From NCBI RefSeq assembly GCF_018524365.1, contig NZ_JAEKFT010000002.1:124001-188000 (forward strand): DNA of 64,000 nt, written 5' to 3'. The DNA comes from Denitromonas iodatirespirans (GTDB lineage: Bacteria; Pseudomonadota; Gammaproteobacteria; Burkholderiales; Rhodocyclaceae). The position numbers and the translations under genes are program-made. Positions 39,927 through 64,000 of this stretch are shown piece after piece. The notes under the pieces are model-generated. The model saw only the letters and a list, made by a program, of their open reading frames with translations. It did no database searches and was not told where the DNA came from. The stretch's first letter is position 1. Each line of letters begins with the position of its first letter.

Positions 39927-40074
39927 AGCCCGTCATTCATTTCCCCATCAATCTCCCATGTCGGGCGGCCCGGCCGCATTGTCGAGGGTATCGATCCCCA
40001 GCGTCGGGTAGTCATTCCGTCATCTTCGGCCATGCGCGGCCCATCGTCCGACACGCGGATTGTTCCAAGGACGC

Positions 40075-41283
40075 ATGTCGGAAAAACTCGTCGTCAAGAA
40101 CCTCTACAAGGTCTTCGGAGACCGCCCCCACGAGGCGATGAAACTCGTCGAAGAGGGGCAGGACAAGGCCACCATCTTCGCCCGCACCGGGCAGACCCTC
40201 GGCGTCATCGACGCCAGCTTCAGTGTCAACGAGGGCGAAATCTTCGTCATCATGGGCTTGTCGGGCTCGGGCAAATCGACCCTGGTGCGCCTGCTCAACC
40301 GGCTGATCGAGCCAACCGCCGGCCAGGTGCTGATCAACGGCCGCGACATTGCCAAGATGAACGACATCGAGCTGCGCGAGCTGCGCCGCAGCGAAGTCAG
40401 CATGGTGTTCCAGTCCTTCGCGCTGATGCCGCACATGAGCGTGGTGGACAACACCGCCTTCGGCCTGGAGCTGGCCGGCATGCCCGAGGCCGAGCGTCGC
40501 GCCCGGGCCATGGCGGCGCTCGAGCAGGTCGGCCTGGAGGCCTGGGCCAACAGCTATCCGGACGAGCTCTCGGGCGGCATGCAGCAGCGCGTGGGCCTGG
40601 CCCGGGCACTGGCCAACGACCCGCAGGTGCTGCTCATGGACGAGGCCTTCTCGGCGCTCGACCCGCTGATCCGCACCGAGATGCAGGACGAGCTGGTCAA
40701 GCTGCAGGCGGCGCACCAGCGCACCATCATCTTCATCTCGCATGACCTCGACGAGGCGATCCGCATCGGCGACCGCATCGCCATCATGGAAGGCGGCGTG
40801 GTGGTGCAGGTGGGCACGGCCGAAGAGATCCTGCGCAATCCGGCCAACGCCTACGTCAAATCCTTCTTCAAGGGCGTGGACGCCACCACCATCCTGTCGG
40901 CCGCCGACCTGGCGCGCAAGACACAGGTCAACATCATCGAGCACCAGGGCATGGGCGTGCGCAGCGCCATCGAACGCCTGCGTGCGCATGATCGCGAGTT
41001 CGGCTACGTGGTCAGCCCCGACCAGAAGCTGATGGGCGTGGTCTCGCTCGACAGCCTGCAGCAGGCCGCCAAGGCGGGCGCCGACGCCAAGCTGCGTGAC
41101 GCCTTCCTGCCCGAGCCGTTGATGCTCACCCCCGACACGCCGATCAGCGCGCTCTACGAGCCGCTCACCCAGCATCCCTACGGCTTGCCGGTGGTGGACG
41201 AAAACGGCCGCTACCGCGGGGCCATCACCCGCAACACGATGCTCGAATTCCTGCATCTACAGCATTCGGAGGACGCGGCATGA
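40075..41283 (+). CDS. proV: Glycine betaine/proline ABC importer, ATPase with CBS domains
   Basis: A 402-residue ATPase of the OTCN/ProU class. Walker A is GLSGSGKST, the signature [10 protein letters not shown], and Walker [13 protein letters not shown]. The last 120 residues carry two CBS repeats, the ionic-strength sensors of this family. The start at ATG 40075 ([15 protein letters not shown]) matches homologues; AAGGA precedes it by only three bases. An in-frame TTG at 40060 is less likely. The stop overlaps proW by four bases (ATGA). Confidence 0.93.
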
Positions 41284-42395
41284 GCGAGCAGACCACGAGC
41301 AATCCCTGGGCCGCCGCGCCCGCGCCCGACGCCACCCCTGCCGCCGCTGCGGCAGCGCCCGACGCCGCCGCCAATCCCTGGGGCGGTGCCGCCCCGGCGG
41401 CCCCCGACGCACCCGCAGCCCCTGCCGGCGGCGACTGGCTGGGCGCGCCGCCCGAGGCGCCGGTCGACACCCCCTTCGACTGGGTGCACCCCTTCAGCGA
41501 CGCGGTGGTGCCGCTCGACACCTGGGTCGACCACGGGCTGGACTGGGTGGTCGAGCACTTCCGCCCCTTCTTCCAGGCGGTGCGCCTGCCCATCGACGCC
41601 ACGCTCACCGGCATCGAGCACGCGCTGCTGGCGGTGCCGGCTTTCCTGATGATCGTGCTCTTCGGCCTCATCGCCTGGCAGGTCAGCGGCCGGCGTCTGG
41701 CCATCGGCGCGGTGCTGTCGCTGATCGGCATCGGCCTGATCGGCGCCTGGGACGAAGCCATGGTGACGCTGTCGCTGGTGCTCACCTCGGTGTTCTTCTG
41801 CCTGGCCATCGGCCTGCCGCTGGGCATCGTGATGGCGCGCAACGACCGCATCGAAGGCTCGGTGAGGCCGCTGCTCGACGCCATGCAGACCACCCCGGCC
41901 TTCGTTTATCTGGTGCCGGTGGTGATGCTCTTCGGCATCGGCAACGTGCCCGGCGTGGTGGTGACCATCGTCTTCGCCCTGCCGCCGCTGATCCGCCTCA
42001 CCAACCTCGGCATCCGCCAGGTGCGGCCCGACCTCATCGAAGCCTCGCGCGCCTTCGGCGCCTCGCCCTGGCAACTGCTCAGCCGGGTGCAGCTGCCGCT
42101 GGCCATGCCGACCATCATGGCCGGCATCAACCAGACGCTGATGCTCAGCCTGTCGATGGTGGTCATCGCCTCGATGATCGCCGTCGGCGGCCTCGGCCAG
42201 ATGGTGTTGCGCGGCATCGGCCGGCTCGACATGGGCCTGGCCACCGTCGGCGGCCTGGGCATCGTGATCCTGGCGATCATGCTCGACCGCATCACCCAAT
42301 CCATGGCCGGCGGCAAGGCCCGACCCGGTCGCTGGTACGAGAGCGGACCGGTGGGCGCCCTGCGGCGCCTGCTGGGCAGATCTTCCGCTGCCTGA
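41280..42395 (+). CDS. proW: Glycine betaine/proline ABC importer, permease
   Basis: A 371-residue permease. The first 55 residues are an Ala/Pro-rich extension with two NPWxxA repeats ([10 protein letters not shown] and [10 protein letters not shown]), before an amphipathic region and about six to seven transmembrane helices. The EAA-type loop that contacts ProV is [30 protein letters not shown]. coli ProW also has a long N-terminal tail, but this one is unusually low in complexity. It is translationally coupled to proV. Confidence 0.93.
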
Positions 42396-42426
42396 CGACA
42401 TTCCACGAACAAGGAGAACCCAAACC

Positions 42427-43440
42427 ATGCGAATGACCGACCTTCCCCGATACCTGCGCGGCGCCGCCCTGGCGCTGACCGCCGCCTTCTCGCTCGGCGC
42501 CTTCGCCGCCGAGATGCCCGGCAAGGGCGTCACGGTGCAGCCGCTGAAAAGCTCCATCGCCGAGGAGACCTTCCAGACCGAACTGGTGATGCAGGGCCTC
42601 AAGGACCTGGGCTACACCGTCCAGCCGATCAAGGAGATCGAATACGCTGCCGGCCATGTGGCGCTGGCCAACGGCGATGCCACCTTCATGGCCGATCACT
42701 GGGATCCGCTGCATGTGGATTTCTACGAACGGGCCGGCGGCGACGAGAAGCTGTTCCGCCAGGGCGTGTACTCGCCCGGCGCCCTGCAGGGCTACCTGAT
42801 CGACAAGAAGACCGCCGAGAAGTACGGCATCAAGTCGATAGACCAGCTCAAGGATCCGAAGCTGGCCAAGCTCTTCGACGCCGACGGCGACGGCAAGGCC
42901 GACCTGGCCGGCTGCAACCCGGGCTGGGGCTGCGAGAAGGTGATCGAGCACCATCTCGACGCCTACGGCCTGCGCGACACCATCACCCACAAGCAGGGCG
43001 CCTACGCGGCGATCATTGCCGACACCATCGCCCGCTACAAGCAAGGCCAGCCGATCTTCTACTACACCTGGACGCCCTACTGGGTGAGCGGCGTGCTGGT
43101 GCCGGGCAAGGATGTGGTATGGCTGCAGGTGCCCTTCTCCTCGCTGCCCGGTGAGCGCAAGGATGTCGATACCGCGCTGCCCGACGGCTCCAACTACGGC
43201 TTCCAGGCCAACAGCCAGCGCATCGTCGCCAACCGCGCCTTCGTCGAAGCCCACCCGTCGGCGGGCAAGCTGTTCGCGGAGATGAAGCTGTCGGCCAACG
43301 ACATCTCGGCGCAGAACCTGCGCATGCGTGACGGCGAGAACAAGCCGGCCGACATCGCCCGCCATGTGGCCGCCTGGATCAAGGGCCACCGCGCCACTTA
43401 CGACGCCTGGCTGGCGGCAGCGCGCGCCGCGGCGAAGTAA
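42427..43440 (+). CDS. proX: Glycine betaine/proline ABC importer, substrate-binding protein
   Basis: A 337-residue periplasmic protein with a signal peptide ending near residue 27 (ALTAAFSLGAFAA). Family phrases include VTVQPLKSSIAEETFQTELV and the aromatic-rich WDPLHVDFYE and FYYTWTPYWVSGVL. Tryptophans of this sort form the cation-pi box for betaines. Two cysteines (AGCNPGWGCEKV) are placed as in ProX. It follows proW by 31 bp with GGAGAA before the ATG. A strong terminator closes the operon. Confidence 0.93.
   Translation: MRMTDLPRYLRGAALALTAAFSLGAFAAEMPGKGVTVQPLKSSIAEETFQTELVMQGLKDLGYTVQPIKEIEYAAGHVALANGDATFMADHWDPLHVDFYERAGGDEKLFRQGVYSPGALQGYLIDKKTAEKYGIKSIDQLKDPKLAKLFDADGDGKADLAGCNPGWGCEKVIEHHLDAYGLRDTITHKQGAYAAIIADTIARYKQGQPIFYYTWTPYWVSGVLVPGKDVVWLQVPFSSLPGERKDVDTALPDGSNYGFQANSQRIVANRAFVEAHPSAGKLFAEMKLSANDISAQNLRMRDGENKPADIARHVAAWIKGHRATYDAWLAAARAAAK

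Positions 43441-43491: not shown

Positions 43492-43492
<1 letters not shown>
43466..43492 (+). terminator. Rho-independent terminator of proVWX
   Basis: ACGGCCGCC and GGCGGCCGT pair over 9 bp with a 5-base loop, followed by TTTTT. It lies 25 bp after the proX stop and overlaps the 3' end of the convergent kinase gene. Confidence 0.85.
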
Positions 43493-46224
<2,732 letters not shown>

Positions 46225-46301
46225 CGGCCCTTCCGTTGGGTTCGATCGTGTGCCCCCGGCCATGATCGGGTGCGGGGGCTCTTCAGGATTAACGAACGCG
46301 C

Positions 46302-46961
46302 TCAGGTGATCTTTACAACGATATCGTGCAGGGTGTTGGCGCAGGCGGCCATGCGGTCGGCGGCGTTGGACAGGTGCCGGTAGATCTCGCGGCGCTTGAA
46401 CATGTTGAGGTAGTCGTCGCCGACGAACAGCGCCGCGAGCGCCTTGCGGTAGCGCTTCTCGACCCGGCGCTCGGCCTTGCGCCCGGCATCGGCGTCGATC
46501 TCGGCCGTGGCGGGCGCCAGGGCCAGCTTGCCGTAGCCTTCGATCAGCGCCTTGGCGCCAGCGTCGATCTGCACCGCCATGTCGTGCATGAAGACGTCGG
46601 GCGCGACGCCCAGCACATGCATCTCGCTGACCGTGGTCTTGCAGTAATTGACCACGTCGTCGAGGGTCATGATGGCGCGGTAGATGTCCTCGCGGTCGCA
46701 GGGGGTCGAAAAGGCCTCGTTGAGGGTGTGCAGGTTGCGGATCTTGAGGGTGTCGGCGGTGTGCTCGTCGCGCCGGATCTCGGTGGCCAGCGCCTCGTCG
46801 CCGCACTTCATGAAGCGCACCAGCAGATGCGTGGTGTGCTGCACATGGATCGCCTGCTCGTGCAGCAGGGCGTAGAAATCCGGCGCCTTGGGGATCAGGC
46901 GGTCGAGGATGCGGCGGAACAAGGCGTCGGGTAAAAAGCGGCGGGGCGGGACGGCATCCAT
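46302..46961 (-). CDS. DUF47 (PhoU-like) protein paired with the Pit transporter
   Basis: A 219-residue all-helical protein of the DUF47 family. It has the acidic and histidine-containing helices typical of PhoU relatives (HVQHTTHLLVRFMKCGDEALATEIRRDEHTADTLK and REDIYRAIMTLDDVVNYCKTTVSE). DUF47 genes usually accompany Pit transporters and are thought to modulate phosphate uptake. It starts 9 bp after the pit stop. ATG 46961 was chosen; an in-frame TTG two codons earlier is possible. Confidence 0.88.
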   Translation of the reverse strand: MDAVPPRRFLPDALFRRILDRLIPKAPDFYALLHEQAIHVQHTTHLLVRFMKCGDEALATEIRRDEHTADTLKIRNLHTLNEAFSTPCDREDIYRAIMTLDDVVNYCKTTVSEMHVLGVAPDVFMHDMAVQIDAGAKALIEGYGKLALAPATAEIDADAGRKAERRVEKRYRKALAALFVGDDYLNMFKRREIYRHLSNAADRMAACANTLHDIVVKIT

Positions 46962-46970
46962 GGTCAAGGC

Positions 46971-48008
46971 TCAGGACAAGAAGGGGAACATCGCCAGCAG
47001 GGCCAGCGCGCCGGCGGCGGCCGCGGCGGGCAGAGTCAGCAGCCAGGTCTGGCCGATCTCGCGCGCCTTGCCCCAGCGCACCGCCTTGGGCCGCTCGGCC
47101 GCGCCGATGCCCATGATCGAGCTGGCCACCACATGGCTGGTCGACACCGGCGCGCCGATCAGCGCGGCGGTGAAGATCACCGAGGCCGAGGTCAGCTGCG
47201 AATCGAAGGCATGGAGCGGGCGCACCCTGTAGACGGAAAAACCGAGCGTACGCACGATGCGCCAGCCGCCGGTGAGGATGCCCAGCGTGAGCGCCGTGGC
47301 GCAGGCCAGCATCACCCAGAAGGGCACGGCAAAGTCCGCCAGATGGCCGCCCAGCACCAGCAGCAGGGTGATGATGCCCATGCTCTTCTGCGCGTCGTTG
47401 GCGCCGTGGGCGAAGGCCAGCGCGGCGGTGGTGAGGAACTGCAGGCGGCGCAGGCGGGTGTTGATGCGCGGATGCGCGGCGCGCAGCAGCAGGCGGGCGA
47501 AGCGGTGGATGGCGTAGCCGGCGACCAGGCCGATCAGCGGCGAGAGCACCAGCGCGGCGACCACCTTGAGCACGCCGGTCAGCTGGCCGCCGTTGCGCCA
47601 GGCATCCATGCCCCACACCACATGCTCGGCACCGGCGGCCAGCACCGTGGCGCCGATCAGCCCACCGACCAGCGCATGTGAGGACGAAGACGGCAGGCCG
47701 CGCCACCAGGTCAGCAGGTTCCAGGCAATCGCGCCGAGCAGGCCGGCCAGCACCACGGCGATGGCATGGCCGGTGGCCAGCGCGCTCAGGTCGACGAAAC
47801 CGCCGATGGTGTTGGCCACCGCCGTGCCGCCGAGCAGCGGACCGAGGAATTCGAAGACACCGACCACCACCACCGCCTGCCCCGGCTTCATGGCGCGCGA
47901 GGCGATCACGGTGGCCACCACGTTGGCCGCGTCATGGAAGCCATTGGTGTAGTCGAACACCAGCACGATGGCGACGGCGATGAAGGTCAGGGCAAGCAGG
48001 CCGTCCAC
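46971..48008 (-). CDS. Low-affinity inorganic phosphate transporter (Pit family)
   Basis: A 345-residue membrane protein with about ten helices. It carries the two PiT signature repeats: FDYTNGFHDAANVVATVIAS near the N-terminus and FAHGANDAQKSMGIITLL in the middle. GLPSSSSHALVGGLIGA and GAPVSTSHVVASSIMGIG are the matching re-entrant loops. It imports phosphate with a cation or metal-phosphate with protons. The start is GTG 48008 with AAGGA upstream. It forms a two-gene unit with the DUF47 gene. Confidence 0.93.
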   Translation of the reverse strand: MDGLLALTFIAVAIVLVFDYTNGFHDAANVVATVIASRAMKPGQAVVVVGVFEFLGPLLGGTAVANTIGGFVDLSALATGHAIAVVLAGLLGAIAWNLLTWWRGLPSSSSHALVGGLIGATVLAAGAEHVVWGMDAWRNGGQLTGVLKVVAALVLSPLIGLVAGYAIHRFARLLLRAAHPRINTRLRRLQFLTTAALAFAHGANDAQKSMGIITLLLVLGGHLADFAVPFWVMLACATALTLGILTGGWRIVRTLGFSVYRVRPLHAFDSQLTSASVIFTAALIGAPVSTSHVVASSIMGIGAAERPKAVRWGKAREIGQTWLLTLPAAAAAGALALLAMFPFLS

Positions 48009-52306: not shown

Positions 52307-53554
<1,248 letters not shown>

Positions 53555-53692: not shown

Positions 53693-55066
53693 ATGGCCTC
53701 GATCGATCTGAAAACCGACATCCCGGGCCCCGCCAGCCGGGCCATCGTGGCCCGCCGCGACGCGGCCGTCTCGCGCGGTGCGCCGCGCCTCACCGGCATC
53801 GCCGTGGTGCGTGGCGACGGCGCCACGGTGACCGATGCGGACGGCAACACCCTGCTCGACTTTGCCGGCGGCATCGGCACGCTGGCGGTCGGCCACACCC
53901 CGCCCGCGGTGGTGGCGGCGATCCGCGCGCAGGCCGGCGAGCTGCTGCACATGTGCAGCATCGTCGCCACCTACGAGCCCTACGTGGCGGTGTGCGAGCG
54001 GCTCAATGCCCTCACCCCCGGCGATTTCGCCAAGAAGACCACCCTGCTCAACAGCGGTGCCGAGGCGGTCGAGGCGGCGGTCAAGATCGCCCGCGCCCAC
54101 ACCCGGCGGCAGGCGCTCATCGTCTTCGAGGGCGCCTATCACGGGCGCACCAACATGACCATGGGCATGACCAGCAAGTACGCGCTGTTTAAGGCCGGCT
54201 TCGGCCCCTTCCCCTCCGAAATCTACCGCCTGCCCTTCCCCAACCCCTACCGGCGGCCGGCCGGCATGAGCGAGGACGCCTACATCGACCACTGCATCGC
54301 CCAGTTCGACCATGCGCTGATCGCCCAGGTGGCGCCCGAGGCGGTGGCCGCCGTGGTGGTCGAGACGGTGCAGGGCGAGGGCGGCTTCCTGCCGCTGCCG
54401 CCACGCTTCGCCGCCCACCTGCAGGCGCGCTGCCGCGAGCACGGCATGCTCTATGTGGCCGACGAAGTGCAGGCCGGCATGGGCCGCACCGGGCGGCTGT
54501 TCGCGGTCGAGCACTACGGCCTGGTGCCGGACTTGCTGGTGAGCGGCAAATCCATCGCCGCCGGCATGCCGCTGGCCGCCGTCACCGGCCGCGCCGAGAT
54601 CATGGACGCCCCGCATCCGGGCGGGCTGGGCGGCACCTTCAGCGGCAACCCGGTGGCCTGTGCGGCGGCGCTGACGGTGCTCGACCAGCTCACCGCGCCG
54701 GGTTTCATGGCCCGTGCCGAGGTGGTCGGCCAGCGCCTGCGCACCCATCTGGAGGCCTTGCAGGCCGCCTATCCCGAAGCCATCGGCGAGGTGCGCGGCC
54801 TGGGGCCGATGCTGACCCTCGACCTGGTGGAGGACGCAGCCAGCCGCACGCCCGACGCCGCGCTCACCAACGCGCTCACCGCCGAGACCCTCAAGCGCGG
54901 GCTGATCACCCTGCGCGCCGGGCTCTACGGCAACTGCCTGCGCCTGCTGCCGCCGCTGACCCTCAGCGATGCGCAGATCGACGAAGCCATGGCGGTGCTG
55001 GCCGAGGCCGTGCCGGCCGCCATCGCGGCGACGCGCGATGCCGTGCGTGAGGTGGCAACGACATGA
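53693..55066 (+). CDS. gabT: Omega-aminotransferase, 4-aminobutyrate transaminase type
   Basis: A 457-residue class III aminotransferase. The PLP lysine is K286 (LLVSGKSIAAGMP), with the cofactor aspartate in VADEVQAGMGRTG (257-269) and the phosphate-binding NSGAEAVEAAVKIAR block at 120-135. Sequence style is that of GabT, which transfers the amino group of GABA or 5-aminovalerate to 2-oxoglutarate. Beta-alanine is also possible. No succinate semialdehyde dehydrogenase is adjacent. The next gene is an Ntn-hydrolase, suggesting the substrate amine may be freed from an amide. Confidence 0.88.
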   Translation: MASIDLKTDIPGPASRAIVARRDAAVSRGAPRLTGIAVVRGDGATVTDADGNTLLDFAGGIGTLAVGHTPPAVVAAIRAQAGELLHMCSIVATYEPYVAVCERLNALTPGDFAKKTTLLNSGAEAVEAAVKIARAHTRRQALIVFEGAYHGRTNMTMGMTSKYALFKAGFGPFPSEIYRLPFPNPYRRPAGMSEDAYIDHCIAQFDHALIAQVAPEAVAAVVVETVQGEGGFLPLPPRFAAHLQARCREHGMLYVADEVQAGMGRTGRLFAVEHYGLVPDLLVSGKSIAAGMPLAAVTGRAEIMDAPHPGGLGGTFSGNPVACAAALTVLDQLTAPGFMARAEVVGQRLRTHLEALQAAYPEAIGEVRGLGPMLTLDLVEDAASRTPDAALTNALTAETLKRGLITLRAGLYGNCLRLLPPLTLSDAQIDEAMAVLAEAVPAAIAATRDAVREVATT

Positions 55067-55121
55067 GCGCGCCCGCTCGGCTGCCCGAAAGATGTCGCGG
55101 CTGCGACAAGCGGGTCGTGCC

Positions 55122-56201
55122 ATGAGCCAGCCGCGTGTCCTCTCGCTGACCGGCACGCCGCGCGACATGGGCCGGGTACATGGCGCGGCCTTCGCCGACG
55201 AGATCCGGCGCTACACCGCCGAACGCGTCGCGCTGGCCGGCAGCGCGGTCTGGACCGGCCATGCGATGGAGCGCGACGCCGTGCTGGCGCTGGCCGAGGC
55301 CTGCCTCGACGCGCACGCCGCCTACGCGCCCGGGTTGATGCTGGAGCTCGAAGGCCTGGCCGAGGCCAGCGGCCTGAGCCTGGCCGAGCTGATCATCACC
55401 AACGGCTTCACCGATTTCATCGATCTGGTCTACGCCCGCGGTGCGGCCGGCGGCGCCACCGCGCAGGTCGAGGACGACTGCACCGCCTTCCTGATCCCCG
55501 ATGCGCTCAGCGTCGACGGCCACGGCTATCTGGGCCAGACCTGGGACATGCATGCCGGATCGCGCCCCTATGTGCTGCTGCTGCAGGGCCGGCCCGACGA
55601 TGGGCCACGCTTCATGGCCTTCAGCCTCACCGGCTGCGTCGGCATGATCGGCATGAACGCGGCGGGCATCGCCGTGGGTATCAACAACCTGCTCGGCGCC
55701 GAGGGGCAGATCGGGGTGAGCTGGCCCTTCGTGGTGCGCAAGGCGCTGCAGCAGACCGACATCGAGGCCGCGCTCGCCTGCATCACCGACGCGCCGCTGA
55801 TGGGCGCGCACAACTTCCTGCTCGCCGACCGCCACGGCACCGGCATCAACATCGAAGCTATGCCCGGCCACTGCCACATCACGCGCCGCGGCGGCGCCGC
55901 GCTGGTGCATAGCAACCACTGTCTCGATGCCGCGACGCTGCGTCGCTGCCGGCCGCGCGCGCCGGCCTCGCAGGCCTCCAGCGAGGCCCGGCTGGCCCGT
56001 GCGCAGACCCTGCTCGATGCCGGCGGGCTGAGCGCGCCGGCACTGATGGCGCTGACCCGCGACCCGGTCATCTGCGTGCGTGCCACCCCGCCGCTGGAGA
56101 TGGAAACCTGCGGCGCCGCGCTCATGCAGCCGGCCACCGGCCAGTTCTGGGCGGTGCAGGGCCTGCCGACCGAGAACGACTACGCACGCTTCACGGTTTA
56201 G
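55122..56201 (+). CDS. C45-family Ntn-hydrolase (acyltransferase/amidase)
   Basis: A 359-residue member of the C45 family, related to acyl-CoA:6-aminopenicillanate acyltransferase. The N-terminal nucleophile would be C120, freed by self-cleavage in VEDDCTAFLIPD. Other family features are GYLGQTWDMHAG, MIGMNAAGIAVGINNL and HNFLLADRHGTGINIEAMPG. In eukaryotes the C45 enzyme Tan hydrolyses beta-alanyl-dopamine. Placement after a GabT-type gene, same strand, 55 bp apart, suggests joint breakdown of an N-acyl amine. ATG 55122 was chosen; 55091 is an alternative. Confidence 0.82.
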   Translation: MSQPRVLSLTGTPRDMGRVHGAAFADEIRRYTAERVALAGSAVWTGHAMERDAVLALAEACLDAHAAYAPGLMLELEGLAEASGLSLAELIITNGFTDFIDLVYARGAAGGATAQVEDDCTAFLIPDALSVDGHGYLGQTWDMHAGSRPYVLLLQGRPDDGPRFMAFSLTGCVGMIGMNAAGIAVGINNLLGAEGQIGVSWPFVVRKALQQTDIEAALACITDAPLMGAHNFLLADRHGTGINIEAMPGHCHITRRGGAALVHSNHCLDAATLRRCRPRAPASQASSEARLARAQTLLDAGGLSAPALMALTRDPVICVRATPPLEMETCGAALMQPATGQFWAVQGLPTENDYARFTV

Positions 56202-56213
56202 GCGCCGCGCCGG

Positions 56214-56987
56214 CTACTCGACCAGATCCTTGTAGGCATGCCACGAGGCATGGCCGATCAGCGGCAGCAGCAGCACCATGCCCACCATCAGCGTGGCAAA
56301 GCCCAGCGCCATTGCGCCGACCAGGATCGCCGCCCACAGCGCCGTCGTCGCCGGATTGAGGGCGACGGCCCGCGCGCTGGTCATCATGGCGGTGGCGATG
56401 TCGGTGTCGCGGTCCATCAGCATCGGTACCGACACCACCGACAGCGCAAACACCACCGCGGCCAGAATGCCGCCCAGAACCAGGTAGGCCGCGACGAACT
56501 GCAGGTGCTCGCCCGACAGGAAGATGTCGCCCAGCAGGTTGCCCACGCTCGGTGCCGAGGCGTTGTAGAACAGCGCGAACAGGATGACCGAGGTGCGCTC
56601 CCACAGGATCAGCGTGACGGCCAGAAAGAGGCCGAAGTAGAACAGCGAATCCCCATGGCGGCGCAGCCCGACGAGCGATTCGTACAGACCGCAGACTTCG
56701 CCCTTGGTCCGCCGGCGCGAAATCTCGTACAGGCCCGCGGCGGCCACCGGCCCGATCAGCATGAAGCCCGAGATCGCCGCGGTGAACAGATACGGCATGT
56801 CGACCGCGTAGGCCAGGATCAGGTAGCCCATCAGGGCGTAGAACGCACCGTAGAACAGGCTGGCGCCGGGGCTGGCGGAGAGGTCCTGCCAGCCGAGTTT
56901 CAGCCATCGCCAGGGGCGGGCAGTGTCGACTTGGCGCACGTGGGGCAGATCGAAATGGCGGTCGAGATGACCGAGCGGCTTGTCCAT
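56214..56987 (-). CDS. DUF2189 integral membrane protein
   Basis: A 257-residue protein. A soluble N-terminus (residues 1-40, HLDRHFDLPHVRQVDTARPWRWLKLGWQDL) is followed by six hydrophobic segments. The WRWLKLGWQDLSASPGASLFYGAFYALMGYL stretch is typical of DUF2189. No function is known. A second small membrane gene lies 73 bp upstream on the same strand. The gene is convergent with the C45 hydrolase. Confidence 0.85.
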   Translation of the reverse strand: MDKPLGHLDRHFDLPHVRQVDTARPWRWLKLGWQDLSASPGASLFYGAFYALMGYLILAYAVDMPYLFTAAISGFMLIGPVAAAGLYEISRRRTKGEVCGLYESLVGLRRHGDSLFYFGLFLAVTLILWERTSVILFALFYNASAPSVGNLLGDIFLSGEHLQFVAAYLVLGGILAAVVFALSVVSVPMLMDRDTDIATAMMTSARAVALNPATTALWAAILVGAMALGFATLMVGMVLLLPLIGHASWHAYKDLVE

Positions 56988-61603: not shown

Positions 61604-61924
61604 ATGCTGTATCTGATCCTGCTCTCGTACCGCGTGCCGCTGACCGAGGTGGACGCCCACCTGGGGGCGCACCGCGCCTACCTTGAACGCCACTACCGTG
61701 CCGGCCATTTCCTGCTCTCCGGACGGCGCGAGCCGCGCAGCGGCGGGGTCATTCTGGCGCAGGCCGACGACCGCGCCACGGTCGAGGCCTGGGTGGCCGA
61801 GGACCCCTTCCACCAGGCCGGCGTGGCCACCAGCGAGATCATCGCCTGGGCGCCGAGCCTGCGCGCCGAGGCGGATCTGGCCGAGGTGGCACCGCAGGCG
61901 GCGCCGGTGGCCGGGCGGCCCTAG
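61604..61924 (+). CDS. YciI-family protein
   Basis: A 106-residue dimeric alpha/beta protein. Family features are HRAYLERHYRAGHFLLSGRREPRSGGVILAQADD and DPFHQAGVATSEIIAW. The conserved His-Asp pair of YciI proteins is seen as H19/H22-type residues and the Asp of ADDR. Function is unclear; some are dehydrochlorinase-like. GGAG lies seven bases before ATG 61604. The stop overlaps the convergent osmolyte gene by four bases. Confidence 0.85.
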   Translation: MLYLILLSYRVPLTEVDAHLGAHRAYLERHYRAGHFLLSGRREPRSGGVILAQADDRATVEAWVAEDPFHQAGVATSEIIAWAPSLRAEADLAEVAPQAAPVAGRP

Positions 61925-64000
61925 TCCACCGCGCTCAAGGCGCCGGTCGGTGCCGCCTCCGCGGCCTCGCGCGTCATGCCATCGACGGCCTCGATGAAGG
62001 CTTCGCCCCAGTGCTGCACCGTGTTGTGGCAGACGATGCCGAACTGCTCGCGGATCGGGCCGCGCGGGTCGGCGGCGGTGCCGCCGATGGTCAGGCCGAG
62101 GTAGATCTTCTCTTCCATGTCGGACGGATCGTGCGGGTTGGTGAGCAAGGTGCCGTGCAGCTCGGCGGCGACGCCGGCGAACTCGGACAGCACCAGCACG
62201 CCATGGCCCTGGGTCAGGCCCTGGGTGGCCACATATTCCTTGGCCACCAGGTTGAGGCCGTCACGCAGCGGGGTGATCCACATCACGTCGGCCATGGCGT
62301 AGTAGCTCACCACCTCGTCGAAGGGCAGCGGGCGGAAGAAGAACTGCAGCGGCGTCCAGCCCACGGTGGAGAAGCGCCCGTTGATGCGCCCGACGGCCTG
62401 CTCGATCTGCGACTGCAGGTCGCGGTAGATGGTCATCTCGCGCGCTGCCGGCACGCACACCGTGACCAGCGTGACCTTGCCGTGGAATTCCGGATGGTTG
62501 TCGAGCAGGCGTTCGAAGGCTTCGAGCTTCTGCAGCGTGCCCTTGGTGTAGTCGAGCCGCTCGACCGACAGCACCATGCGCTTGCCGGCCAGTTCCTCGC
62601 GCAGCCGGGCCATGCGCTCGTGGGTCGCTTTCTCGGCGAGGATCTTTTCGATGCGGCCCACGTCGAGCCCGACCGGATGGGCGCCGAGGCCGATGCGGCG
62701 GTGGTGTACTTCGATCTCGGTGGCGTAGTCTTCCACCCCCACCGCGCAGCCATAGGTGCGAAAGCGCGGTGCGCTGGCCTGGCGCTTGAGCACCTTGACC
62801 GGGGCCACGCCCTGCGCGGCATCGAGGAAGTTCTCCACCTGGCGCGGGATGTGGAAGCCGATGTAGTCGCACTGCATCAGGCTGCCGATGATCTCGCGCC
62901 GCCACGGCAGCACGTTGAACACGTCGGCGGACGGGAAGTAGGTGTGATGGAAGAAGGCGATGCGCAGATCCGGGCGCAACTCGCGCAGGAAGCCCGGCAC
63001 CATCCACAGGTTGTAGTCATGCAGCCATACCAGCGCGCCCTCGGCGGCCTCGGCGGCGGTGCGCTCGGCAAACAGGCGGTTGACCTTGAGATAGACCTCC
63101 CAGTCGTCCTCGCGGAACTCGGCGCGTTCCCAGAAGGTGTGCAGGGTCGGCCAGAAGGCTTCCTTGGAGAAGCGCTTGTAGAACACGTCCACATCGTTCT
63201 TGGTCAGCGCCACGCGGGCCGCCACCAGGCCGGGATAGGCCTTGCGGTCGACCACCGTGTGGGTCTCGAAGGGGCGGCCGTTCTCGGGGTCATGAATCGC
63301 CCAGGCGACCCAGGCGCCGCGCTGCCCGCCTTTGAAGAAGGACATCAGCGTGGGCATGATGCCGTTGGGCGAGGTCGGTCGGCGGCGCACCAGCTCACCG
63401 TCCTCCCAGCTCTCTTCATAGGGCAGGCGGTGATACACCATGACCAGCTCGGAGCGGCCGGGCTTGGCCATCGCCGCCACCTCGGCATCGACCGCGCCCG
63501 GGCCGAGAAAGCCGAAGTGCGACAGTGCTTCGAGAATGCCGCCGCAGCCGGTGTACTTGGCATGCAGCACCTTGGAGCGATCGCGCGTGGCCTGGATCAG
63601 CCCATGCTCCGACTCGCCCACCGCCACGCCGAAGAACCCCGCTTCGAACATCGACAGGTCGTTGAGCGTGTCGCCGGCCACCAGCACCTCGTCATGCGGC
63701 ACCTCGAGCAGGTCGACCAGACGGGTCAGGGTGCTGCCCTTGTTGATGCCGCGCGGCAGCACGTCGAGATACTTGTCGGCCGAGAACAGCAGGTCGCAGC
63801 CGAGCGACTCGACCCGCGCCACCAGGTCGGAGGTGACCGCGTCGGCATCGCAGAAGTAAGAGCAGCGGCGCTGCTGCGGCACGGTCTGGCGATGGATGCC
63901 GGGGATGTCGCCGATGCGGTCGCGCACCACATGCTCGCCCGGCCAGAGCGCGTCGATCGACGACTGGATGGGCTCGACCGGCCGCAGATCGGTGCCTTCG
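61921..64000 (-). CDS. Fused glucosylglycerol-3-phosphate phosphatase/synthase, N-terminal end outside window
   Basis: The frame is open to the window edge, so the 5' end is missing; about 692 residues are visible. The first part is a HAD-type phosphatase C-terminal half (GINKGSTLTRLVDLLEVPHDEVLVAGDTLNDLSMF). The rest is a trehalose-phosphate-synthase-like glycosyltransferase with LHDYNLWMVPGFLREL, FFHHTYFPSADVF, SVERLDYTKGTLQKLEAF and PLRDGLNLVAKEYVATQG. This phosphatase-synthase order is that of fused GgpPS enzymes, which make the osmoprotectant glucosylglycerol from an ADP-sugar and glycerol-3-phosphate. The HAD nucleophile DxD lies beyond the window. OtsA/OtsB function is a less likely alternative. 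Confidence 0.85.
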   Translation of the reverse strand, partial: EGTDLRPVEPIQSSIDALWPGEHVVRDRIGDIPGIHRQTVPQQRRCSYFCDADAVTSDLVARVESLGCDLLFSADKYLDVLPRGINKGSTLTRLVDLLEVPHDEVLVAGDTLNDLSMFEAGFFGVAVGESEHGLIQATRDRSKVLHAKYTGCGGILEALSHFGFLGPGAVDAEVAAMAKPGRSELVMVYHRLPYEESWEDGELVRRRPTSPNGIMPTLMSFFKGGQRGAWVAWAIHDPENGRPFETHTVVDRKAYPGLVAARVALTKNDVDVFYKRFSKEAFWPTLHTFWERAEFREDDWEVYLKVNRLFAERTAAEAAEGALVWLHDYNLWMVPGFLRELRPDLRIAFFHHTYFPSADVFNVLPWRREIIGSLMQCDYIGFHIPRQVENFLDAAQGVAPVKVLKRQASAPRFRTYGCAVGVEDYATEIEVHHRRIGLGAHPVGLDVGRIEKILAEKATHERMARLREELAGKRMVLSVERLDYTKGTLQKLEAFERLLDNHPEFHGKVTLVTVCVPAAREMTIYRDLQSQIEQAVGRINGRFSTVGWTPLQFFFRPLPFDEVVSYYAMADVMWITPLRDGLNLVAKEYVATQGLTQGHGVLVLSEFAGVAAELHGTLLTNPHDPSDMEEKIYLGLTIGGTAADPRGPIREQFGIVCHNTVQHWGEAFIEAVDGMTREAAEAAPTGALSAVD

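Follow-up and report, generated by a model that had tools for sequence, protein, structure and literature searches.

The stretch of DNA analyzed here (hereafter the window) comprises 64,000 nucleotides of Denitromonas iodatirespirans (contig NZ_JAEKFT010000002.1, positions 124,001 to 188,000) and carries two adjacent genes, gabT and a gene for a C45 family N-terminal nucleophile (Ntn) hydrolase, which may act together in the breakdown of polyamines to 4-aminobutyrate (GABA) (Table 1). GabT, a protein of 457 aa with an ATG start codon, scores 517.7 bits with the equivalog model TIGR00700 (4-aminobutyrate--2-oxoglutarate transaminase; cut-off 506.65). Its best matches among solved structures are GABA transaminases, with the 4-aminobutyrate transaminase 3q8n at the top (E 1.7e-126), and the narrower GABA transaminase models in the same profile list score it below their cut-offs. 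The second protein scores 224.1 bits with NF040521 (C45 autoproteolytic acyltransferase/hydrolase, proenzyme; cut-off 85) and 59.2 bits with PF03417 (cut-off 23.2). The original prediction of a GabT-type aminotransferase followed by a C45 Ntn-hydrolase is thus borne out by profile scores above cut-off for both genes. A mechanical open reading frame (ORF) at 54969-56201 exceeds the C45 gene in length. The ATG at 55122 was taken as the start because most aligned relatives shown carry Met there, and an earlier in-frame ATG at 55092 is a possible alternative. Only 55 bases separate the gabT stop from the C45 start at 55122, on the same strand. Given this spacing and the conserved gene order described below, the two genes probably form a small co-transcribed module; a promoter scan gave 0 sites, and a terminator scan gave one site against 0.7 in shuffles. 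Both genes appear to be under purifying selection (dN/dS, the ratio of nonsynonymous to synonymous rates, of 0.18-0.27 in six pairs for C45 and 0.14-0.31 in five pairs for GabT), and since their adjacency also recurs across phyla, the pairing looks like more than chance.

Table 1. Features of the gabT-C45 locus and its flanks, in window coordinates
Feature	Position	Strand	Basis or remark
gabT, class III pyridoxal phosphate (PLP) transaminase, GABA--2-oxoglutarate type	53693..55066	+	TIGR00700, PF00202, match 3q8n
C45 Ntn-hydrolase precursor, 359 aa	55122..56201	+	NF040521, PF03417, AlphaFold2 model
Predicted alpha chain of C45, residues 1-119, predicted to be freed by self-cleavage	55122..55478	+	Aligned to alpha chain of isopenicillin-N acyltransferase (IAT)
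Cys120 codon, predicted N-terminal nucleophile of beta chain	55479..55481	+	Aligned to IAT Cys103
Asp142 codon	55545..55547	+	Aligned to Asp121 in WD motif of IAT
Asn265 codon, NHC motif	55914..55916	+	Aligned to IAT Asn246
Upstream GGDEF gene (PF00990)	52307..53554	+	Profile match; considered outside the function of the pair
Downstream DUF2189 gene, convergent to the pair	56214-56987		Profile scan of window

The AlphaFold2 model of the C45 protein, computed from 51 sequences, has a mean predicted local distance difference test score (pLDDT) of 94.6. Its best match among solved structures is IAT (2x1c; Z 42.7, 332 residues aligned, root-mean-square deviation 2.0, 21% identity), followed by NAAA (Z 30.8) and acid ceramidase (Z 30.1), both at 16-18% identity. 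In the profile alignment, Cys120, Asp142, and Asn265 are paired with Cys103, Asp121, and Asn246 of IAT, the latter two of which are catalytic residues in IAT. All three are invariant among the 51 aligned sequences, as is the Thr that follows the Cys, and the position preceding Cys120 holds D in 26 sequences, N in 22, T in two, and G in one. Moreover, the alignment of the model with the beta chains of NAAA and acid ceramidase begins at Cys120, numbered 121 in the 360-residue input of the model. The cleavage site of IAT is Gly102-Cys103 (PMC10194958). Profile scores above cut-off, a junction Cys with conserved Asp and Asn, and a fold of the C45/IAT Ntn-hydrolase type together place the protein in the C45 family. 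The model indicates that it is an Ntn-hydrolase of the IAT type, and we infer that it cleaves itself before Cys120. The earlier numbering of the nucleophile as C120 holds with the start at 55122, and the assignment to the amide-active C45 type agrees with the presence of the catalytic residues and with the acyltransferase/amidase fold in the model.

For the conservation of the pair, 199 genomes from the family of the window organism were searched for C45 (E 1e-20) and GabT (E 1e-140). Ten of these genomes have a C45 match, nine close (61-100% identity, including the window's own) and one remote (25%, G078). GabT of the window type was found in only seven of the 199, and in all seven the C45 gene lies directly downstream (Fisher p 1.6e-11 for co-occurrence, from 7 and 9 of 199 genomes and with kinship ignored). 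In locus L147 (G078 contig C26, 2266-8546), a remote C45 gene (24-25% identity) lies beside genes that, named by eye, resemble those of an oligopeptide ABC transporter. A wider scan of GTDB species genomes provided the best 80 of 107 confirmed C45 loci. Many of these loci are contigs of metagenome-assembled genomes (MAGs) that end early, and some contigs are possibly misbinned (e.g., Chromatiaceae L018). Some genomes occur in both samples (e.g., L005 and L014), such that the counts are not additive. Group labels were taken from record titles, four of which (L024, L078, L084, and L088) read only "bacterium". In L013, L020, L030, L069, L084, and L089, the C45 ORF was lost in tiling and was read via tblastn, and tiled ORFs without a family that appeared to be shadow ORFs were dropped (e.g., L064:5912-7168 and L061:13251-14759).

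The closest named C45 loci belong to Denitromonas, Azoarcus, and other Rhodocyclaceae/Zoogloeaceae. GabT (at least 58% identity) is found within 0.3 kb of C45 on the same strand in 15 of the 80 loci, within 2.5 kb in 18, and within 10 kb in 20. At the closest distance, the pair is present in all Pseudomonadota (11/11) and Myxococcota (2/2) loci, in 1/52 Chloroflexota and 1/11 Acidimicrobiia-like loci, and in 0/4 Deinococcota loci. Within 10 kb, the numbers are 11/11 for Pseudomonadota (one being a Chromatiaceae MAG), 2/2 for Myxococcota, 5/52 for Chloroflexota, 1/4 for Deinococcota, and 1/11 for Acidimicrobiia-like loci. The original prediction depended on the two genes being neighbors in other genomes too, and it survives these counts (7/7 family genomes; 15/80 loci, from four phyla). 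The patchy distribution (9/199 in the family) makes it likely that the pair was transferred between phyla, in either direction.

The C45 phylogeny was inferred from an alignment of the window C45 with those of 50 of the 80 loci; gaps or truncation excluded L026, L063, L071, and L079, and the other 26 were omitted to thin well-sampled groups. When the 51 rows were labeled by GabT adjacency (16 with GabT within about 1.5 kb), the labels required four changes on the tree compared with about 14 after shuffling, and at least three of the four are backed by well-supported branches. The pairing therefore either arose repeatedly or is ancient, with losses in some lineages. The GabT tree was restricted to transaminases encoded close to C45 or elsewhere in the window genome, with no free-standing GabTs of this type; in it, those linked to C45 cluster together (support 96/99), separate from the other transaminases of the window genome. 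It could be argued that the two genes are merely co-regulated neighbors, for example in nitrogen scavenging, with no common metabolite, as C45 often occurs without GabT of the window type. Against this stand the repeated close pairing in four phyla and the unbroken pairing in the family genomes that have this GabT, and we regard such an explanation as distinctly unlikely.

The genes around C45 relatives point to a metabolic setting. Of the 80 loci, 20 hold either agmatine/putrescine-type genes or two or more Pot-type genes, and 37 have any of GabT, GNAT, agmatine/putrescine-type, or Pot-type genes. The gene order in L024 is Pot-type permeases and binding protein, flavin amine oxidase, carbon-nitrogen hydrolase, two class III transaminases (the second of which is GabT), agmatine deiminase, C45, and two GNATs. 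In this locus, the agmatine deiminase scores above the TIGR03380 cut-off, and the amine oxidase has LSD2 and LSD1 as its top-scoring matches, ahead of spermine and polyamine oxidases. The carbon-nitrogen hydrolase reaches 226 of the 410 bits of the AguB model, which is below the cut-off, and its best solved match is N-carbamoylputrescine amidohydrolase. Similar genes are found in single runs in L063 (AguB-like, GabT, aldehyde dehydrogenase, AguA, and C45) and L091 (GabT, C45, GNAT, and PotABCD-like); the L091 binding protein is nearest to the PotD and PotF models, far below their cut-offs. In L074, GabT, C45, and GNAT are consecutive, with AguA- and AguB-like genes upstream. The absence of an adjoining transporter or semialdehyde dehydrogenase, stated in the original prediction, is thus true of the window, where the pair is flanked directly by the GGDEF and DUF2189 genes, and does not extend to relatives such as L091 and L063. 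In L022 (= G170) and L150 (= G104), a carbon-nitrogen hydrolase 76% and 72% identical, respectively, to one in the window genome lies directly before GabT-C45; the window-genome hydrolase in question is the one on contig C149, described below. L028, which otherwise resembles L022, has no such gene before its pair.

These loci are also related to the window through the C45 phylogeny, in which the window clade groups with the C45s of L023, L024, L025, L027, and L030 (support 96/98). All of these loci hold polyamine-type genes except L023, the contig of which is short upstream, and three of these C45s stand directly after an agmatine deiminase. In total, agmatine deiminase directly precedes C45 in L024, L025, L026, L027, and L063. 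The association was examined further in 249 genomes of the class to which L025 belongs, with agmatine deiminase called by a profile score over cut-off and with Fisher values that ignore kinship. Agmatine deiminase is present in 5 of the 12 genomes with a strong C45 and in 13 of the 237 others (p 0.0006; 0.004 without the centre genome), and a looser C45 set of 14 genomes gave a similar result (5/14 vs. 13/235, p 0.0015). The two genes lie directly side by side only in the centre genome (G200); they are 15 kb apart in G206 and on different contigs in the other three. In the Acidimicrobiia-like group, a PotA-like gene is directly downstream of C45 in 9 of 11 loci, which are mutually close relatives, and only one of the 11 has a linked GabT. 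Within the window's own family, G150 and G067 have a close C45 without GabT of the window type, and four Pot-type transporter genes lie 2-6 kb downstream.

Taken together, these patterns suggest an amidase function for the C45 protein: it would release GABA, or a polyamine that is converted to GABA, from an N-acyl form, and GabT would catalyze the next step. We favor this reading tentatively, with somewhat less than even confidence. Cys120 would hydrolyze an amide that is produced or encountered as polyamines are broken down, and the freed GABA would be transaminated by GabT to succinate semialdehyde. The substrate would most likely be an N-acyl-GABA (e.g., 4-acetamidobutanoate), or otherwise the preceding N-acyl polyamine. 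The former ranks first because, in Pseudomonadota and Myxococcota, no other partner stays as close to C45 as GabT; the latter ranks second because Pot-type and agmatine genes adjoin C45 in other lineages. In related Chloroflexota, Myxococcota, and Actinomycetota, C45 lies beside genes for uptake, agmatine/putrescine processing, and GNAT, which would supply the acylated intermediate; in the window's family, it is mostly the last two steps, GabT and C45, that are found together, and polyamine-type genes are located elsewhere in the window genome. The proposal that C45 frees an omega-amino acid for GabT therefore holds together as a coherent reading with a conserved pair, although the neighbors direct it to polyamine/agmatine-to-GABA metabolism. 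For beta-alanine or 5-aminovalerate, which had been suggested as alternative products, nothing in the data points to either.

Alternatively, C45 may act before GABA by hydrolyzing imported N-acylputrescine or N-acylagmatine, such that the polyamine enters the agmatine/putrescine route and GabT performs only the last step. The PotA-like gene after C45 in the Acidimicrobiia-like loci, the Pot-type genes near C45 in G150 and G067, the agmatine deiminase directly before C45 in the five loci named above, and the existence of C45 genomes without a close GabT are all consistent with this alternative. However, it leaves unexplained why GabT is the closest-kept gene in all 13 Pseudomonadota and Myxococcota loci, and we consider it rather unlikely.

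Several results weigh against the favored link between an N-acyl substrate, polyamines, and GabT. The pair is not obligatory: among 30 of the 80 loci's genomes, mostly chosen without an adjacent GabT and with completeness not given, 18 have no GabT match at E 1e-100, and G150 and G067 likewise have C45 without GabT of the window type. The two trees disagree in detail, as the lineage closest to the window clade is the Chloroflexota-type group in the C45 tree and Deinococcota L069 in the GabT tree. No residue recognizing the acyl or the amine part was identified in the C45 protein. A further 32 of the 80 loci, all labeled Chloroflexota, have C45 in a different setting, in which it shares a block with genes of the AAA, VWA, and alanine dehydrogenase families, and 28 of them hold all three. 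In L034, the locus in which these families were profile-scanned, the block comprises FHA, AAA, VWA, C45, and alanine dehydrogenase (above the TIGR00518 cut-off); an arginase follows C45 directly in six of the 32 loci, with the L034 copy above the TIGR01229 cut-off. In the window's family, agmatine deiminase (AguA) was found in none of 21 genomes tested, comprising all nine with a close C45 (the window genome included) and 12 without C45, and agmatine as a source in the window organism is accordingly unsupported. The same 21 genomes were used for GNAT, which lies within 0.45 kb of C45 in 13 of the 80 loci and is not linked to C45 in the window. The GNAT match in the family is a different, unlinked gene (30-32% identity to the linked GNAT among the matches listed) and is present in 9/9 genomes with C45 and 4/12 others. 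Furthermore, the model of the linked GNAT is nearest to the GNAT-like decarboxylase domains of SxtA, CurA, and GphF (Z 24) and then to serotonin N-acetyltransferase (Z 20.6), not to a polyamine acetyltransferase; the linked GNAT may thus be either an acetyltransferase or a decarboxylase.

GNAT as a constant partner of C45 was rejected, given that the GNAT of the window's family differs, adjoins a carbon-nitrogen hydrolase, and also occurs in genomes without C45. In L163-L168, all from this family, GNAT and the carbon-nitrogen hydrolase are adjacent and flanked by S-adenosylhomocysteinase- and metF-like genes (named by eye). A more specific version of the favored reading is an acetyl-protected putrescine route. 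GNAT would acetylate putrescine, a transaminase or an amine oxidase together with an aldehyde dehydrogenase would produce 4-acetamidobutanoate, C45 would deacetylate it, and GabT would take the resulting GABA. We consider this full route unlikely.

It is also conceivable that the C45 protein works in the synthetic direction, as an acyltransferase producing, in the manner of IAT, an N-acyl amine or amino acid, with GabT supplying or removing the amine. The best structural match of the protein is indeed an acyltransferase. In addition, five of the 11 Pseudomonadota loci encode a FeeM-type N-acyl amino acid synthase, with its start 2.7-5.1 kb beyond that of C45, namely L013 (13892-15187; the locus scanned with PF21926), L014, L015, L016, and L019. 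Nevertheless, the FeeM query had no match in the window or in the other six Pseudomonadota loci, some of which are on short contigs, and the neighbors at other C45 loci are of catabolic type. The FeeM-type synthase was thus rejected as a partner of the pair, and an acyltransferase role appears quite improbable.

The remainder of the window genome bears on another known way of producing GABA. Its contig C3 carries PuuD-, PuuA-, aldehyde dehydrogenase (ALDH)-, and transaminase-type genes in one cluster, with a strong PF07722 match. PF07722 (Peptidase_C26, PuuD) was not found in the C45 protein, in which only PF03417 was detected at E 0.001. The cluster weakens the earlier suggestion of a gamma-glutamyl amide substrate. 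It also speaks against C45 as a gamma-glutamyl-GABA hydrolase replacing PuuD, although that reaction would hand GABA to GabT. A single PuuA query at E 1e-15 located a PuuA-like gene no more than 10 kb from C45 in L072 and L087 and none in the remaining 78 loci. A role as a PuuD stand-in was accordingly rejected as the main explanation and is very improbable. The window genome also has a second C45 gene (NF040521 183 bits), with 26% identity to the first over 189 residues, in locus L130 (G000 contig C149, 453-12210). The order on this contig is carbon-nitrogen hydrolase, remote C45, and a protein with an Orn/Lys/Arg decarboxylase domain, and a second, divergent GabT/ALDH pair with a MocR-type regulator lies 5 kb from this C45, beside the carbon-nitrogen hydrolase. 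The second C45 is thus likewise surrounded by amide hydrolases, GABA genes, and a polyamine-type decarboxylase.

As for other genes of the window, the GGDEF gene upstream of gabT (cluster 135) is also found upstream of GabT in four Denitromonas-like loci (L013, L014, L015, and L016), and the L013 copy was scanned and matches PF00990. Pot-like matches at 40-42 kb were rejected, as they correspond to ProV and ProW of a glycine betaine/proline transporter; ProV, ProW, and ProX at 40060-43440 all score above NCBIfam cut-offs. A glucosylglycerol-phosphate synthase is encoded at 61921-63930 on the minus strand (TIGR02398, 716.6 bits; cut-off 569), which together with ProVWX suggests salt adaptation. 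The minus strand also encodes a hybrid sensor histidine kinase of 1404 aa with PAS-type matches (43492-47706).

The annotation of many bacterial proteins stops at C45 family peptidase or 6-aminopenicillanic-acid acyltransferase-like. For a subfamily that has a recurrent partner and occurs in a polyamine/GABA setting, this uninformative label gives way to a short list of testable substrates. Such a subfamily also suggests a second way, besides gamma-glutamylation, for bacteria to handle amides between polyamines and GABA. To our knowledge, 4-acetamidobutyrate deacetylase is an activity without an assigned gene; if the acetyl-protected putrescine route were true, it would provide such a gene and a catabolic role for a group of bacterial C45 proteins. 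A literature search, with subscription papers outside its reach, found no paper among those listed that links a C45 protein to polyamines or GABA.

Among known systems, IAT of Penicillium (MEROPS C45) has the fold and the Cys, Asp, and Asn positions in common with the window C45. The likeness is limited to the fold and conserved residues; the identity is 21%, and the window protein belongs to a bacterial polyamine/GABA setting. NAAA and acid ceramidase likewise have the Ntn core and a nucleophile that begins the beta chain; however, they are animal lipid amidases with 16-18% identity. Tan, the insect N-beta-alanyldopamine hydrolase, is also of the C45 type and breaks an omega-amino acid amide (PMC10194958). 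The comparison with Tan is by description rather than by sequence, and Tan acts on a catechol amine conjugate in insects. The AguA/AguB route has its genes next to C45 in some Chloroflexota-type loci and one Myxococcota locus, whereas AguA is absent from the family genomes tested; as far as we know, the established route does without both a C45 enzyme and a GNAT. In the Puu pathway of gamma-glutamyl-putrescine breakdown (PuuD, then PuuE), an amide hydrolase frees GABA just ahead of a GABA transaminase, an arrangement comparable to the one proposed here. PuuD, however, belongs to another family (PF07722) and is encoded separately in the window genome. Both the GabT and C45 families are already known.

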